Below the pieces are notes generated by a model. That model made no database searches and was not told the origin of the DNA. It worked only from the letters and a program-made list of their open reading frames with translations. Shown here piece by piece: positions 57,238 to 64,000 of a DNA stretch of 64,000 nucleotides (position 1 is the first letter of the stretch; each line of letters begins with the position of its first letter). Location of the stretch: positions 1 to 64,000 of the forward strand of contig DUBO01000040.1 of NCBI GenBank assembly GCA_012960245.1, in the 5' to 3' direction. The translations under genes and the position numbers were made by a program. Origin of the DNA: Candidatus Binatota bacterium. Lineage in GTDB: Bacteria; Desulfobacterota; Binatia; UBA1149.

Positions 57238-57570
57238 CGGCCGGCAAAAAGAATCCGGCCCGTCCGCCGTGGCTACCGCAAGGACCAGCTGAACGGTAAC
57301 CCAGCGACGGACGAACCGGAAGGGGGAGCCTGCACACGGTTTCCCCACCCTGGATAAAGCAATCGGCGTGCCACCTGCCGCCAGCCTTGAAGCCGGCCAA
57401 CAAGCGCCCGTTACCCCTTGCAAAACCCGTGTTTCGCCTCCGCTCCCCGAGGGGAGCAGCCAACGGCACCGCAAAGCTGGGTTTGCGCCACACGCGCCTA
57501 CCGCATACCGCTCTTAGCGGGAGCGTGGCCGAGCCCGGAACACGGGCCGACCACACAGGGGAGTAGTACA
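57238..57570 (+). other. Non-coding leader before the cyclase gene, with hairpins
   Basis: This 333-base gap contains a small inverted repeat right after the ligase stop (GGCCGG 57239-57244 with CCGGCC 57255-57260). It also has a strong hairpin GCTCCC-CGAG-GGGAGC at 57442-57457 and a shorter CCGC-TCTTA-GCGG at 57508-57520. An AGGGGAG site lies at about 57558. In-frame TTG 57418 would make the second half coding, but the predicted protein there looks random. No known riboswitch pattern was recognised. Confidence 0.4.
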
Positions 57571-60500
57571 CTGATCGAACTCGAGGCCACCATTGTATGC
57601 GCCGACCTTTCGGGGTTCACGCTTGCAGCGCGCGACCTCGACCCCGAGCAGGTAACCGAACTGGTCAACGGTTGTTTTGCTGGCATGGAAGACATCGCCA
57701 GCGCCCACGGCGGCACCCCGCTGCAGTTTCTCGGAGACTGCATGCTGGCCGCTTTTCCCCACGCAGAACAGGCCGAGGCCGCCAACCGTCATGCGCTGGC
57801 CGCTGCCCTCGGGATGCTTGAGTGGATAAAACAATCCGCGCCCCTGTTTCCCGGCAGCAAAAGACCTGGCCTGCACATAGGTGTCGAGGCTGGACAGTTG
57901 CAGCTGGGGCGACCGCCGACCGGCGGCCTGCTGCCCGCCGGTCGGTGCACGACAGCGGCCATGCGCCTGGAAGCGGCAGCTGAGACCGGCTCGGTGCTCG
58001 TTGGCTCAACGGCCCGGCAACTGGCGGGCCGGGGTTTCAGTTTTTCACAGGCCGCCGACGACGCGCCGCAGGGCTCGGCGCTGCTGGCGTCCGGCCGAAC
58101 CAACGACCACGATACCCTGCCCGCTGGCATACCCCGCCTGGCCGAGTCCACGCCCGGCGAGGAATTGCAGTACCAACGGCTGCAACAACGCCAACCCGAA
58201 CGTCGGCAGGTGACCGTGCTGTTCGCTGAACTGTGCCAGGCTCCCGCGCCCAGCGACGCGCAGATGCAGGCACTCAGCCTGGCCGTACAGGCCGAGGGTG
58301 GTTACGTGGACAAGTTTACCGGCCGCACCATGATGGCCCTGTTCGGGGCACCCGATGGACTCGAAGAAGCGCCTGCCCGCGCCGCGGCCGCGCTTGCCCG
58401 CCTGCTCAACAACGACGGCGCCGATGCCATCAAACCCGGCGCCATCCGAGCGGGCATGAACAGCGGACTGGTCGTGGCCGGGTTGGTGGGGGGCAACAAC
58501 AGCCGCCAGTACACGGTGATAGGCGACGCGGTCAACCTCGCTGCCCGGCTCAAGGACGCGGCCTCACCCGGCGAACTCTACCTCGGAGAGCAGACCGCCT
58601 ACCGGCTGTCCGACCGTTTTTGCGTGAGCGCGCTCGCACCCTTGTCATTGCAGGGACAGGGCCGGGCCGTGCAGGCCTACGCGCTCGACCCCTTGCGACC
58701 GCCGGGCAAAGGCAACGACGCTGGACCTCGCAGGCGCAAGCTGCGCGCTCCGCTGGTGGGCCGCGACCGGGAACTCGCCGCCCTGCTCGGTGGAGTAAAG
58801 CAGGCCCACGCGGGCGAGGGCTCTGTGATGGTGGTGAGCGGTGAGGCGGGCCTGGGAAAGTCGCGCCTGATCGAAGAGTTCAAGAGCGACCCCTCGCTGT
58901 CGGATTGCCTGCTGCTCGAAAGCCAGGCATCGCAAGGCAACTCGCGACCCTTTGCGCTCGCGGCCGACCTGCTGCGCCAATGGTGTCAACTCAGCGGTAA
59001 CGAGAGCAACGACGACGCGCTCGCCTTGCTGCGCGCCGCGGTCGAGCGCAGCGATGGCCAACTCGAAACCGAACTGCCCTCGCTCGCGACACTGCTGGGA
59101 ATACAGCACGCCGACGACAACTCGCCGGGCTCGTCGCAGCCGGGTTCGTCAACACCCACGGGCGACGCGCTGAGAAAACGCCTGCAACTGGCGCTTACAC
59201 GACTGGCCACCGTACTGTCGGCGCAACGGCCACTGGTCATCGTCCTCGAGGACCTGCACTGGGCCGACCAGTCGAGTATCGAAATACTTGGCGGGCTGTC
59301 GTCCGCGAGCCAGCGGGCTGCCGTGGTCACGATCATAACTACCCGCGAAGATTCGGCCGCTGCGCTCACTGGCAGCAAAACCCACGAGCGCAGCTCGCAG
59401 CTTGCCCTCTCACCGCTCGACGACAACGACCTCGACCGACTGGTCACGGGCCTGCTGGGGACAGCCGGCCTGCCGATAGCCCTGCGCCGACGAATTCGCG
59501 CCAACGCCGAGGGCAACCCCTTCTACGTCGAAGAGGTACTCAGGTCGTTCATCGACCAGGGCGCGCTCGTGCAATCGCGCGACGGCTGGCAGACCACCGC
59601 GGCGATTAACGAAGTAGACGTTCCCGATACTGTCCAGGGAGTGGTGCTCGCCCGCGTAGACGCCATGGACGACCAGGCCCGCGAGATACTGCAGGCCGCC
59701 TCGGTGATCGGCCGCCGTTTCTACTACCGGCTGCTTCTCGGCACCGTCGATGACTCGGGCGAACTCGACACTGCCCTCGCCCGCCTCGAGGACATGCAAC
59801 TGGTGAGCAGCAGCATGTCATCTCGTACCGGCAGCGTTGCCCGGCAGGCCGAGGCCGCTGAGCGCGAGTACCATTTCCACCACCAGGTCGCGCAGCAGAC
59901 CGTGTACCATTCCCTGCTCAAAGGCCGGCGGCGCGACATGCACGCCCGCGTGGCCAGCGCCATCGAAAAAGCTTTCGAACAACGGCTCGACGACTTCGAA
60001 GCCGAGCTCGCTTTTCACTGGGGCCAGGCCGAACAAGCTGACAAGGCCGAGTACTACCTGTTTCGAGCGGGCGACAACGCCGCCCGCTCGGCCGCCTCGG
60101 CCGAGGCGCTCGCCCATTTTCGCGAAGCGTCGCGGCTGTACCTGCAACAACACGGCAAGGGTGGCGATCGCGCACGCAAGGCGCTACTCGAAAAGAACAT
60201 CGGGCTGGCGCTGCTCAATACCGGCGACCATCACGAGTGCATAGAGCACTTTGACGCATCGCTGGCGTGGCGGGGTCGTTCTTCTTCGCTGCGAACCGGT
60301 ACTGCAGGCCTTCTGCAGGCCGGCGGTGCCCTGGCCCGCACCTGGCTGGCCCTCGGCCGTCGGCGCAGCAGCGCAGCGGCCGACAAGAAAGGATCCGCGA
60401 CTCCCAGCGCGGCCGAACTCGAAGGACTTGAAGCCGAGGTCATGCGCGCCCAGGCCCTGGCCAACGTCGACCCGCAGCGGGCGTTTACCGCTGCCCTGTC

Positions 60501-61563
60501 GGTGGTCGGAAGACTCGAGCACATGAACGCAAGCGGGGTCGAACGGGCGGCCGAACTCTACGCCGACGCTGCGGGCTTCGTGGCCTTTTCGGGCACCTCC
60601 TTCTCGCTCTCGCGCCGGCTGCTCGAGCGTGGGGAAGGCCTGCTCAGCGACGACAACTTGGCCGGCGACTTTGCCTGCAGGGCCATGCGTTTTATTGCCG
60701 ACTACTTCGAGGGAGACTGGAACGACAGCCCGCTGCCCGCCACACGCGACCTCGAAACCGCCATGGAACACGGCCAGCTGGTACTCGCGAGCAACTACTT
60801 CGGCCTGGCCGCCGAGCGATCCACCTGGCAGGGCCACTGGCGCAACAGCGCGCGCATGCTCGACGCGGTCAAGCGACTGGTCGATCTTTACGGATACGAC
60901 TTTGCCGTCTCCTGGCGCGACGCCATTCCCCTTTACGTGGCCGTGCAACAGGACCGCCCCTTCGACGCCATCGAGGCTGCCAACCGCTACTTGTCCGCCC
61001 GCCACGAAGATAACCTGCTGGCCTTCGGCCACGCCATGAAAGCGCGAGCCGAGTGCGCGGCCGGTTATCTCGACGAAGCTGCCCATTCAATCGAATTGTC
61101 TGCCGCGGACGCTTCGCGGGCCGGTGCGCTACCTCCCTACCACGCGGCGCCGCTGGCGGTGGCAAGGTTTGAGCTGGGCCTCACGGCCCACGAACAGGAG
61201 CACGCCGACAGTCCATCGCGGTGGACGGTGGAGAGAGATTGCAGGCGGGCACTCAGGGCCACGCGGGCGCTGGCCCGCGAGCGCCCCGACCTCTACCGGG
61301 CCGTGGGGCGCTGGAACCAGCTCTGCGGCCGGCGGCAGGTAGCACTCACCTGGTACCGCCGCAGCATCGACGAGGCCCGCCGCCTTGGCGCGCTCCCGGC
61401 GCTGGCCCGCACGCTGGCGCTGTGCTCGAGACTGGCCTGGACGGGCGACCCACTGCCCAGCGCCGAGCAGTGCCGTGAGCAGTCGCTGTCGTTGGCAGAG
61501 TGCCTGCGCAGGAACGATGATCGCGACGCCTGGCCCCCGCCTGGGCAGAGCGACGCGAGCTGA
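57571..61563 (+). CDS. Tandem class III nucleotidyl cyclase with AAA ATPase and helical-repeat domains (soluble adenylyl cyclase architecture)
   Basis: 1,330 residues if the CTG at 57571 is the start (AGGGGAG seven bases upstream, first residues IELEATIVCADLSGFTLAAR); TTG 57418 is the alternative. Domain order: cyclase C1 (about 1-190), cyclase C2 (about 210-375), AAA/STAND-type ATPase (Walker A GEAGLGKSR at 424-432, Walker B LVIVLEDLHWAD near 555-564), then TPR-like helices to the end. C1 keeps both metal Asp residues (D12, D56) but has Gln at the adenine-Lys, Arg at the Asp and Thr at the Asn positions. C2 has Glu and Arg at the metal positions (220, 252) but keeps K248, D319, N322 and R326. 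One composite site should form between them, as in human ADCY10. cAMP production is predicted, not shown. Confidence 0.88.
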   Translation: MIELEATIVCADLSGFTLAARDLDPEQVTELVNGCFAGMEDIASAHGGTPLQFLGDCMLAAFPHAEQAEAANRHALAAALGMLEWIKQSAPLFPGSKRPGLHIGVEAGQLQLGRPPTGGLLPAGRCTTAAMRLEAAAETGSVLVGSTARQLAGRGFSFSQAADDAPQGSALLASGRTNDHDTLPAGIPRLAESTPGEELQYQRLQQRQPERRQVTVLFAELCQAPAPSDAQMQALSLAVQAEGGYVDKFTGRTMMALFGAPDGLEEAPARAAAALARLLNNDGADAIKPGAIRAGMNSGLVVAGLVGGNNSRQYTVIGDAVNLAARLKDAASPGELYLGEQTAYRLSDRFCVSALAPLSLQGQGRAVQAYALDPLRPPGKGNDAGPRRRKLRAPLVGRDRELAALLGGVKQAHAGEGSVMVVSGEAGLGKSRLIEEFKSDPSLSDCLLLESQASQGNSRPFALAADLLRQWCQLSGNESNDDALALLRAAVERSDGQLETELPSLATLLGIQHADDNSPGSSQPGSSTPTGDALRKRLQLALTRLATVLSAQRPLVIVLEDLHWADQSSIEILGGLSSASQRAAVVTIITTREDSAAALTGSKTHERSSQLALSPLDDNDLDRLVTGLLGTAGLPIALRRRIRANAEGNPFYVEEVLRSFIDQGALVQSRDGWQTTAAINEVDVPDTVQGVVLARVDAMDDQAREILQAASVIGRRFYYRLLLGTVDDSGELDTALARLEDMQLVSSSMSSRTGSVARQAEAAEREYHFHHQVAQQTVYHSLLKGRRRDMHARVASAIEKAFEQRLDDFEAELAFHWGQAEQADKAEYYLFRAGDNAARSAASAEALAHFREASRLYLQQHGKGGDRARKALLEKNIGLALLNTGDHHECIEHFDASLAWRGRSSSLRTGTAGLLQAGGALARTWLALGRRRSSAAADKKGSATPSAAELEGLEAEVMRAQALANVDPQRAFTAALSVVGRLEHMNASGVERAAELYADAAGFVAFSGTSFSLSRRLLERGEGLLSDDNLAGDFACRAMRFIADYFEGDWNDSPLPATRDLETAMEHGQLVLASNYFGLAAERSTWQGHWRNSARMLDAVKRLVDLYGYDFAVSWRDAIPLYVAVQQDRPFDAIEAANRYLSARHEDNLLAFGHAMKARAECAAGYLDEAAHSIELSAADASRAGALPPYHAAPLAVARFELGLTAHEQEHADSPSRWTVERDCRRALRATRALARERPDLYRAVGRWNQLCGRRQVALTWYRRSIDEARRLGALPALARTLALCSRLAWTGDPLPSAEQCREQSLSLAECLRRNDDRDAWPPPGQSDAS

Positions 61564-61736
61564 GGCGCGCGCAACCGGTCTCCATGAACCGGCAGCGCAG
61601 CCGCCAACCCGGGTTTACACACAAGCCCATGGGCGCTACCCAGACTTGGCACTGGCGACGCACCCCCGATCGTGCAGCTGGCAAAACAGCCTGTAGAATC
61701 AATGGACTCAGCCTCGTTTACACGGCCATACCGCTG

Positions 61737-61753
61737 TGGCACGGCGGTTGCTT
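61737..61753 (+). promoter_or_regulatory. Consensus sigma-54 promoter
   Basis: TGGCACGGCGGTTGCTT matches the TGGCACG-N4-TTGCW consensus at every defined position, with GG (61738-61739) and GC (61750-61751) exactly ten bases apart. The predicted start of transcription is near 61763, leaving a leader of about 175 bases before the secreted-protein gene. It lies in the gap 61564-61938, which otherwise holds only a palindrome (61859-61875). Confidence 0.8.
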
Positions 61754-61858
61754 GCTTGCAGCTTGGAGAAAACCGAGAGGGGCCAGCCGCGGCAAACCCG
61801 GCTGACCAGGAAAGCAGCGTGCAAGGACCAACTGCAAAACTACAAGACAAAAGTTTTT

Positions 61859-61875
61859 TACCCACTTGGGGGGTA
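61859..61875. repeat. TACCC-N7-GGGTA palindrome in the leader
   Basis: TACCC (61859-61863) and GGGTA (61871-61875) flank ACTTGGG, after a T-rich tract (61854-61859). Located about 100 bases downstream of the predicted sigma-54 transcription start and 64 bases before the likely coding start, it could be a repressor site or a leader structure. Confidence 0.35.
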
Positions 61876-61938
61876 GTCAGCGATAGCCCGCCTGATAGTC
61901 TTGTTCCCTGGGAGTCCACGGGTTCCCGGGGGTCTGTT

Positions 61939-64000
61939 CTGCGGCTGTTAAATACAACTACTTATACTGCCCGCCACCGGCCGGGTGACAGGGCAGGCGC
62001 GGGCAATGCCATCGCGCTGGCGGCGCTGGTCCTGTCGATTGCGCTGGCGCTGGCGCCCACGGTTTCGCAGGCCGCCTGCAACCTCATCCCCCAGGCGACG
62101 CGTAGCTTTCGCGGAGAGCTGGGCCAGGTCGACAGGCCCTGGGCCACGCCCGGCGACTGGGTAAGCGTGTCGTTGGACAGCGGCTGCCACACCGACAGTG
62201 ATTTTTCGGCCTCGGGCTTCACGGGCACCGCCGGCGACTACGTTGTAACCGTGGTCGATACCCCAGGCACCGGCAAACTGTCGGCCGTGGTACTGGCGGA
62301 GAACTGCGCTGCGCTGGCCACCACGCCATCGACCTGCGTTGGCGGCAACATCGTCGCAAGCGAATGCCGCCAGATCAGTGATAGCGGAGGTGTCATAGAG
62401 TTCCAGGTCCTTGCCTCGGCGTTGCGCTTCGTGTTCCCCGACACCGACAACCTTCTGCCTCCCAGCGGGGCATCGTGCATCGGGGGACTGAACTCAGGGA
62501 CCGCCTGCACCAGCAATAGCGAATGCCCGGCCAGTAGCTGCGGCAGCACCGATGGATTAACGCTGGCCGGACCAGCCCGCATAGTCGTGACACACGCGAC
62601 TACCGATACCTGGACCTGCAGCAACATCAGCACCGACTGCGCGAATTACGGAAGCAGCGACGTGGCGGCCTGCGTTGATTCGCTTTATACCGACGACGGC
62701 AGCTGCAACACCACGACCAACCACGACGTGTTCCCCAGCTTTGTCGGCCTGCCACACACCAATGACTTTGCCCAACTCTGCACCCCCGAGGACCCCACCG
62801 ATCTGAATGATCCGTGTACGGAATCTGAAAACGAAGTAGTTATGGCCGTCGACGAGGACGGTAACCTTCTGATTCCGGTGGACTGGACTAACATATTGAT
62901 CGACGGAGAAGTGCCGACCCCGATACTGCTCAACGGTGCCAGTGCGATAGACAATTACAGCGGTTCTGGGGACCCGGTTGTCCTGCCCAACGAAGACTTC
63001 GTAGACTCCTACACTCTCGAGGGGGCTATACTCCCACCGGTCTTGTCACCTTTGACCAACGAGGAAAACAGTACCGAGATCGCGCTGTTCGGCTCGGCCG
63101 ATGCCCCGGTTACCGTTCTGCGCCTGGCCGCACTGAGTCCTGATGACACCGTCTGCTCAGCCGTAGACCCGTTGCTGGAAGATGTCCCCTGCACCGAAAA
63201 TACTGCGTGCGGTGGTGGTACCTGCGGGAGCGCCAAGTGCGTAGGCGGAAGCAACGCCGGCTTGGCCTGCACGGATTCTTCCGTGTGCACCGGCGGCGGA
63301 ACATGCGGCATCCCGCTTTTCGATTTCAGCGACCGAATGTACAACTCGGCCACCAACGGCGCCGTGGTCATAGATAAATCAGATCTGCTGGCCAAGATCG
63401 CCGGCGTAGAAGAGGGGGCATGCTCCATTTCCGGAGACCCATGTGACCTGGCCAATCCCTGCCTACCGGGCGAAAGCTGCGTTAATTTTCGGATGTCGAT
63501 AGCGGGCTCGGCGCCACTTGAAGGTATCTACTCGACCGACACCCTGTATGCTTTCGTAACGGAAGAAGAAGTCGAAGACGATCAACTCAACGACGACTCT
63601 GACAAGATCGACAGGGTACTGGTCCTGCGTAACAGGGATACCGCCGAGCTTCTACAAACCGGCAACAACTTGGCAGACGGTCGCGCGATTACATACGCAA
63701 CGGATTCTCCTTTCTCCTGGCCAGTTATCGCCCTTGAGGGAGATATCGTCGCCATGACCGAGCCCGAGTGGGCCGAGGGCGATTGCTCCGTTTCCAATTG
63801 CGATCGCAACGGTGACTACGACATAGCCGACAGCATTCTCCGCGTTTTCAGGCGGGACGACACCGGTAGCCCGATCGTGGCCGAAGACCAAACCGTGAGC
63901 GGGGGACTGCCCCTGCAGATACCGGTAGGTATCGGAAACCTGATAGACGGTCGCAGCCTGGCCGTGAGCAATAGCCTGGTATTCTTCGGCAGCTCGGAAT
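61939..64000 (+). CDS. Large secreted Cys-rich surface protein, 3' end outside window
   Basis: At least 687 codons, open to the right edge. The N-terminal hydrophobic stretch IALAALVLSIALALAPTVSQ ends at AA and is followed directly by CNLIPQATRSFRGE, a convincing signal peptide. The start codon is unclear: the frame is open back to 61588, no good ATG/GTG lies close to the signal peptide, and CTG 61939 is my tentative choice (ATG 61702 would precede the sigma-54 promoter). The mature chain has beta-rich segments and repeated Cys motifs of the C.GG.N.G.AC(T).(S)..C.(G)G.(C)G type (near 62480-62550, 63205-63310). Asp-rich DRNGDYDIADSILRVF stretches near the end may bind calcium. Function unknown; probably a surface adhesin or sensor. 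Confidence 0.8.
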   Translation, partial: MRLLNTTTYTARHRPGDRAGAGNAIALAALVLSIALALAPTVSQAACNLIPQATRSFRGELGQVDRPWATPGDWVSVSLDSGCHTDSDFSASGFTGTAGDYVVTVVDTPGTGKLSAVVLAENCAALATTPSTCVGGNIVASECRQISDSGGVIEFQVLASALRFVFPDTDNLLPPSGASCIGGLNSGTACTSNSECPASSCGSTDGLTLAGPARIVVTHATTDTWTCSNISTDCANYGSSDVAACVDSLYTDDGSCNTTTNHDVFPSFVGLPHTNDFAQLCTPEDPTDLNDPCTESENEVVMAVDEDGNLLIPVDWTNILIDGEVPTPILLNGASAIDNYSGSGDPVVLPNEDFVDSYTLEGAILPPVLSPLTNEENSTEIALFGSADAPVTVLRLAALSPDDTVCSAVDPLLEDVPCTENTACGGGTCGSAKCVGGSNAGLACTDSSVCTGGGTCGIPLFDFSDRMYNSATNGAVVIDKSDLLAKIAGVEEGACSISGDPCDLANPCLPGESCVNFRMSIAGSAPLEGIYSTDTLYAFVTEEEVEDDQLNDDSDKIDRVLVLRNRDTAELLQTGNNLADGRAITYATDSPFSWPVIALEGDIVAMTEPEWAEGDCSVSNCDRNGDYDIADSILRVFRRDDTGSPIVAEDQTVSGGLPLQIPVGIGNLIDGRSLAVSNSLVFFGSSE

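Follow-up and report, generated by a model that had tools for sequence, protein, structure and literature searches.

The gene described here occupies positions 57571-61563 (+) of the window, a 64,000-nucleotide stretch of contig DUBO01000040.1 (assembly GCA_012960245.1) from a Candidatus Binatota bacterium of the UBA1149 lineage; UBP10 denotes the phylum Binatota, of which UBA1149 is one order (PMC8262859). It is a single open frame of 1330 codons encoding a cyclase-cyclase-ATPase-tetratricopeptide repeat (TPR) protein of 1330 aa (orthologues L033, 93%, and L034, 96%). We consider it likely that this protein is a soluble, single-chain, pseudo-heterodimeric nucleotide cyclase of class IIIb, fused to a STAND (signal transduction ATPase with numerous domains) ATPase and a TPR-like sensor, and that its tandem of cyclase domains is separate from the tandem of the Chloroflexota and of ADCY10, the mammalian soluble adenylyl cyclase (sAC).

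Gene structure and domain layout

A Shine-Dalgarno-like GGGGAG (57558..57563, +), conserved in sister species (L004, L005 and L033), lies 7 nt 5' of the start. The start codon at 57571-57573 is CTG in the window and GTG in two sister species in which the upstream GGGGAG is identical; the CTG is either a natural non-canonical start or the result of a base error or recent change. An opposite-strand reading was rejected because stops interrupt a minus-strand translation of 57571-61563 and the plus frame is under purifying selection, and an assembly or fusion artefact was excluded by the presence of the same gene in the genomes of sister species.

Two PF00211 (Guanylate_cyc) domains are recognised by Pfam with E values of 1.6e-8 and 3.1e-10, both domains scoring above the curated cut-off, followed on the C-terminal side by an AAA_16 ATPase (4.5e-23) and then by weak TPR matches. 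The first cyclase domain, C1 (approximately residues 5-165; 57583..58065, +), delimited by its PF00211 match, a family hidden Markov model and alignment, is the metal-supplying half; the second, C2 (approximately residues 207-372; 58189..58686, +), delimited by its Pfam match and alignments, is the base- and transition-state-binding half, and a fast-evolving linker (approximately residues 166-206; 58066..58188, +) joins the two. The ATPase domain is of the AAA_16/STAND type (PF13191; residues 394-586; 58750..59328, +), with an intact Walker A motif GEAGLGKS (residues 424-431; 58840..58863, +) and an intact Walker B region IVLEDLHWAD (residues 557-566; 59239..59268, +). A helical TPR-like tail spans residues 871-1330 (60181..61560, +), as indicated by the weak Pfam TPR matches, tail comparison and a structural model. 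Confidence in the ATPase-TPR model is low, with a predicted local distance difference test (pLDDT) value of 70 and a predicted template modelling (pTM) score of 0.53, and the fold matches of this model, a STAND-TPR protein and MalT domain III, are supportive only. The C1-C2-AAA-helical order, which the sequence-only reading had likened to that of ADCY10, was confirmed by Pfam and by the tail analysis; ADCY10 likewise carries a P-loop STAND domain plus a long C-terminal region behind its cyclases. Assignment to the kinase/cyclase fusion family TOMM_kin_cyc (TIGR03903) was rejected, the score being 252.9 bits against a cut-off of 705.75, with only profile positions 327-925 matched.

Active-site residues and the predicted pairing of C1 and C2

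Residues were assigned from a family-profile alignment, direct domain alignment and tandem alignments. C1 keeps both metal-binding Asp residues, D12 (57604..57606, +; invariant in A1, A3 and A4) and D56 (57736..57738, +), which align with D47 and D99 of ADCY10. On the substrate side it is degenerate: Q52 (57724..57726, +) stands at the Lys position, and within the motif LPAGRCTTAAMR (57931..57966, +) L121 replaces the base-selecting Thr/Asp and T128 the Asn, the Arg being retained as R132. In C2, E220 (58228..58230, +) and R252 (58324..58326, +) occupy the first and second metal positions, and the substrate-side residues are kept, namely the base-pocket Lys K248 (58312..58314, +), the base-selecting Thr T315 (58513..58515, +), aligned with ADCY10 T405, and an NxxxR motif (58534..58548, +) whose N322 and R326 align with ADCY10 N412 and R416. 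C1 thus agrees in full with the sequence-only reading, in which it retained both metal Asp residues and had lost the Lys/Asp and the Asn. For C2 the loss of the metal Asp residues and the retention of Lys, Asn and Arg held on realignment, but the Asp proposed at the base-selecting position did not: that residue is T315, and the nearby D319 aligns with ADCY10 Q409.

Thr at the base-selecting position is typical of class IIIb cyclases, which have Thr or Ser there instead of Asp, and T315 places the protein in that class. The mammalian transmembrane cyclases (ADCY1-9) share the C1 metal residues and the C2 base and transition-state residues; they are membrane proteins and have Asp in C2. Since C1 keeps the metal-binding Asp residues and C2 keeps the Lys, Thr, Asn and Arg, one full site can be built and its mirror image cannot, and the composite of the two domains provides at least one site with the two metal Asp residues, base residues, Asn and Arg of a class III cyclase. 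ADCY10 (PDB 4usu, 4clf and others) is likewise a single C1-C2 chain with one composite site, to which C1 contributes D47 and D99 and C2 contributes N412 and R416, the second site being blocked by a C2 hairpin, M337-G341 (PMC4506562).

For structural comparison, a profile of the tandem region was built from 13 proteins from Binatota and others, and AlphaFold was run on C1-C2 of the window protein plus nine relatives. Human ADCY10 is the best PDB match of the profile and is matched over both domains at once (E 4e-54, profile positions 9-381 of 393). The model of C1-C2 as one chain (pLDDT 85, pTM 0.84) pairs C1 with C2, and its best fold match is ADCY10 with AMPCPP (template modelling score 0.78 of the query), followed by membrane cyclases, which are clearly weaker. 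One superposition of the model onto ADCY10 covers both domains, and C1 and C2 are therefore predicted to face each other; the non-facing geometry that would have spoken against a single composite site with the polarity of ADCY10 was not seen. Tandem linkage alone does not force pairing in cis, and it is established that class III cyclases of bacteria usually form homodimers and that STAND proteins oligomerise, so that a site formed between two chains (C1 of one and C2 of the other), or else a product other than cyclic AMP (cAMP), has to be considered. We judge this quite unlikely, as the single-chain model pairs C1 and C2 in the manner of ADCY10 and the Lys and Thr of C2 suit adenine, as in class IIIb.

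The window protein differs from ADCY10 in clade, in its C2 hairpin and in the bicarbonate-binding Lys. Its C2 is shorter after the first strand and, in the alignments, lacks the K-G hairpin insertion, the 4-residue extension with which C2 of ADCY10 closes off the second site. In ADCY10, bicarbonate contacts V167, R176 and K95 (PMC4506562). The Lys95/Arg176 pair is not recovered here: K95 corresponds to Q52 of C1, and R132 lies near the Arg176 position in a part of the alignment that is uncertain by one residue. With Q52 in place of K95 and no hairpin, the protein is not expected to be controlled by bicarbonate in the way that ADCY10 is.

The same division of residues is seen across relatives. 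Tandems occur in 12 of 148 genomes of the class, one per genome and in seven families. In all ten aligned Binatota tandem lineages C1 carries the Asp pair and C2 carries N..R; N..R in C1, or a reverse site that could be built, is found in none of them. Of 57 single-domain relatives, 46 have both residue sets within their one domain. Among the Chloroflexota/Actinomycetota tandems the Asp pair is present in C1 in 38/38 and in C2 in 0/38 (six gapped at one position), with N..R in C2 in 37/38. The tandem sequences are related by descent and these counts are not independent trials; the division between C1 and C2 is respected everywhere in the tandems examined, which is more than chance.

Pairwise ratios of nonsynonymous to synonymous substitution (dN/dS) among three sister species are 0.10-0.24 for C1, C2 and the ATPase, indicating purifying selection, and 0.38-1.07 for residues 176-206 of the linker, which is nearly free; all residues for one site are unchanged across these species. 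Such constancy bears on whether the protein might be a pseudo-cyclase, its C1-C2 pair binding ATP or nothing and doing no more than regulate or dimerise the STAND ATPase. The cyclase domains do evolve fast, one sister genome has no detectable cyclic-nucleotide-binding protein, and a class III cyclase-like ATP-binding protein of Pseudomonas aeruginosa (6yii) appears among the fold matches. However, the residues of one site are all present and constant in the three sister species, and ten lineages in which the other site was freely lost retain both the metal pair and the Asn/Arg pair, a division that decay would ignore, which makes a pseudo-cyclase unlikely. The gene is real and conserved, and its product is probably an active, single-site cyclase.

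Descent of the Binatota tandem

In our tree, C1 of ADCY10 groups with the Chloroflexota C1 domains (18 rows, 100/100) and C2 of ADCY10 with those of Chloroflexota C2 (18 rows, 99/87), adjoining L125/L159 (99/88), whereas the Binatota C1 and C2 lie inside a Binatota clade that also holds single-cyclase and split proteins (33 rows including the metagenome-assembled genome (MAG) L038; 98/96). A quick tree of 138 rows gives the same groupings. The approximately unbiased (AU) test rejects a union of ADCY10 C1 with Binatota C1 (p 3e-8), a union of ADCY10 C2 with Binatota C2 (p 0.011) and a single clade of all C2 (p 0.0008). Neither Binatota C1 as one clade (p 0.36) nor Binatota C2 as one clade (p 0.51) is rejected, and the tree is therefore compatible with one duplication inside Binatota. 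A 4-residue insertion in C2, between Lys and Gly and excluded from the tree columns, gives a second line of evidence: in the tandem alignment ADCY10 has it, as does each of the Chloroflexota/Actinomycetota tandems read, and none of the Binatota tandems does. Matches to the C-terminal 460 residues of the window protein come from Binatota proteins of the tandem, split and single types, from MAG L038 and, at a weak level, from two Bacteroidota proteins, and from no Chloroflexota tandem at E 1e-3, some Chloroflexota loci covering the gene front only and others (L049, L051 and L122-L128) being nearly whole. The cyclase domains, the ATPase and the tail are all closest to Binatota proteins.

The grouping of C1 and C2 with Binatota single-cyclase proteins, together with the common C-terminal half, suggests that the Binatota tandem probably arose separately from the Chloroflexota/ADCY10 tandem and reached the same polarity; the simplest history would be a duplication of the cyclase domain within a Binatota single-cyclase STAND protein. 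The sequence-only reading had instead expected the protein to inform the origin of soluble adenylyl cyclase. If this bacterial protein were orthologous to ADCY10 or ancestrally related to it, the C1-C2-ATPase-TPR arrangement would have arisen once and been inherited by Binatota, Chloroflexota and eukaryotes. The shared order and polarity, the Thr in C2 and the rank of ADCY10 as best profile and fold match are in keeping with such kinship, but it is contradicted by the trees, the AU tests, the absent C2 insertion and the Binatota-type tail, and we regard it as highly improbable. The phylogeny of C1 and C2 against ADCY10, which had been suggested as a check, places both Binatota domains apart from ADCY10, which groups with the Chloroflexota tandems, and leaves the expected link unsupported.

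Among Chloroflexota, tandems of this kind are widespread, with 32 of 151 genomes carrying one at E 1e-50. Chloroflexus enzymes studied by Kobayashi and colleagues in 2004 reportedly have two catalytic domains. The Chloroflexota/Actinomycetota tandems (for example L051, L049, L064 and L159) show the same polarity of degeneration as the window protein and, in their large members, the same C1-C2-AAA-TPR order; unlike it, they carry the C2 insertion of ADCY10, group with ADCY10 and have tails unmatched at E 1e-3. Six Chloroflexota proteins (L151, L152, L154, L155, L157 and L160) are stand-alone tandems of about 520 aa, which lack the ATPase and have Asn at the C2 base-selecting position. Passages of PMC6660944 show that sAC-like cyclases carrying a P-loop NTPase were recognised in bacteria as long as twenty years ago (Roelofs and Van Haastert 2002; Kobayashi et al. 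2004), and a passage of PMC11006738 cites bicarbonate activation of a Chloroflexus sAC-like enzyme.

Within Binatota, the single-cyclase STAND proteins (L010, L015 and L017) share the ATPase, the C-terminal half and the cyclase clade of the window protein; they differ in having one cyclase domain with a complete DDKTNR set, and would be expected to act as homodimers. Five further Binatota proteins (L018-L022) are split, L019 (L019:25-4896) having the order Cyc-AAA-Cyc-AAA. They keep N..R in the first cyclase and lack one or both of these residues in the second, with the metal Asp residues in both where readable. These split tandems belong to the same clade as the window tandem and are likewise complementary in their degeneration, but with the polarity reversed; polarity is therefore not fixed in Binatota. 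On balance, we lean towards the view that single-site pseudo-heterodimeric cyclases evolved more than once in bacteria, namely in the Chloroflexota/ADCY10 line, in the Binatota tandem and in the reversed Binatota Cyc-AAA-Cyc-AAA proteins. Bacterial sAC-like tandems were already known; what is new is a separate Binatota tandem of the same polarity plus a split form of opposite polarity. A literature search on Binatota and adenylate cyclase found no paper, which points only weakly to novelty.

Asymmetric cyclases, in which one site is live and the other dead, are best known from eukaryotes; there the dead site was turned into a regulatory pocket, for forskolin in the membrane cyclases and for bicarbonate in ADCY10. 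A Binatota lineage that reached this partition separately would be an independent replicate, of interest as a case of convergence rather than as an ADCY10 ancestor, and it lets one ask whether the dead site has again become a regulatory pocket and whether polarity is dictated by domain order. If the repeated origins are true, which half keeps the metals may depend on domain order and linker geometry. The C1-C2-ATPase-TPR layout by itself is no marker of ADCY10 orthology.

Proposed mechanism and cyclic-nucleotide partners

We propose that C1 and C2 pack against one another, that D12 and D56 of C1 would hold two metal ions and K248 and T315 of C2 the base, and that N322 and R326 of C2 would serve to stabilise the transition state. 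Of the residues needed for the mirror-image site only one Arg is left, and that site would be dead. By analogy with STAND proteins, the ATPase and the helical tail probably switch the cyclase on or off upon a ligand. To judge from the residues at the site, adenylyl cyclase activity, with cAMP as the product, is most likely. This reading is favoured by the intact composite site, the purifying selection and the intact Walker motifs, and no other class III cyclase and no CYTH protein were found in the window's genome.

Several points weigh against the reading of the protein as an active single-chain cyclase of separate descent. The AlphaFold training structures include ADCY10, the closest fold match. 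In the tree, C1 and C2 of the window protein are long branches, and a single clade of all C1 is only marginally rejected (AU p 0.043); homogenisation of the domains within Binatota could, moreover, mimic a separate origin. On the signalling side, no CRP (cAMP receptor protein)-type partner was found in the window's genome, whose two cyclic-nucleotide-binding proteins (L112 and L113) are not CRP-like, and the sister genome G002 has the tandem protein and no detectable cyclic-nucleotide-binding domain; no cAMP receptor is therefore established.

Of the two cyclic-nucleotide-binding proteins, one (L112:1432-2802, -) is a putative sulfotransferase with a C-terminal cyclic-nucleotide-binding domain that contains a canonical GEL...PRTATV cassette, and the other (L113:652-1920, -) combines a cyclic-nucleotide-binding domain with a C-terminal part that resembles, by eye, a haem-oxygenase/TenA-like all-helical domain. 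Downstream of the tandem cyclase gene, at 61672-63999, a large open frame without a Pfam match runs past the window end and encodes Cys-rich repeats.

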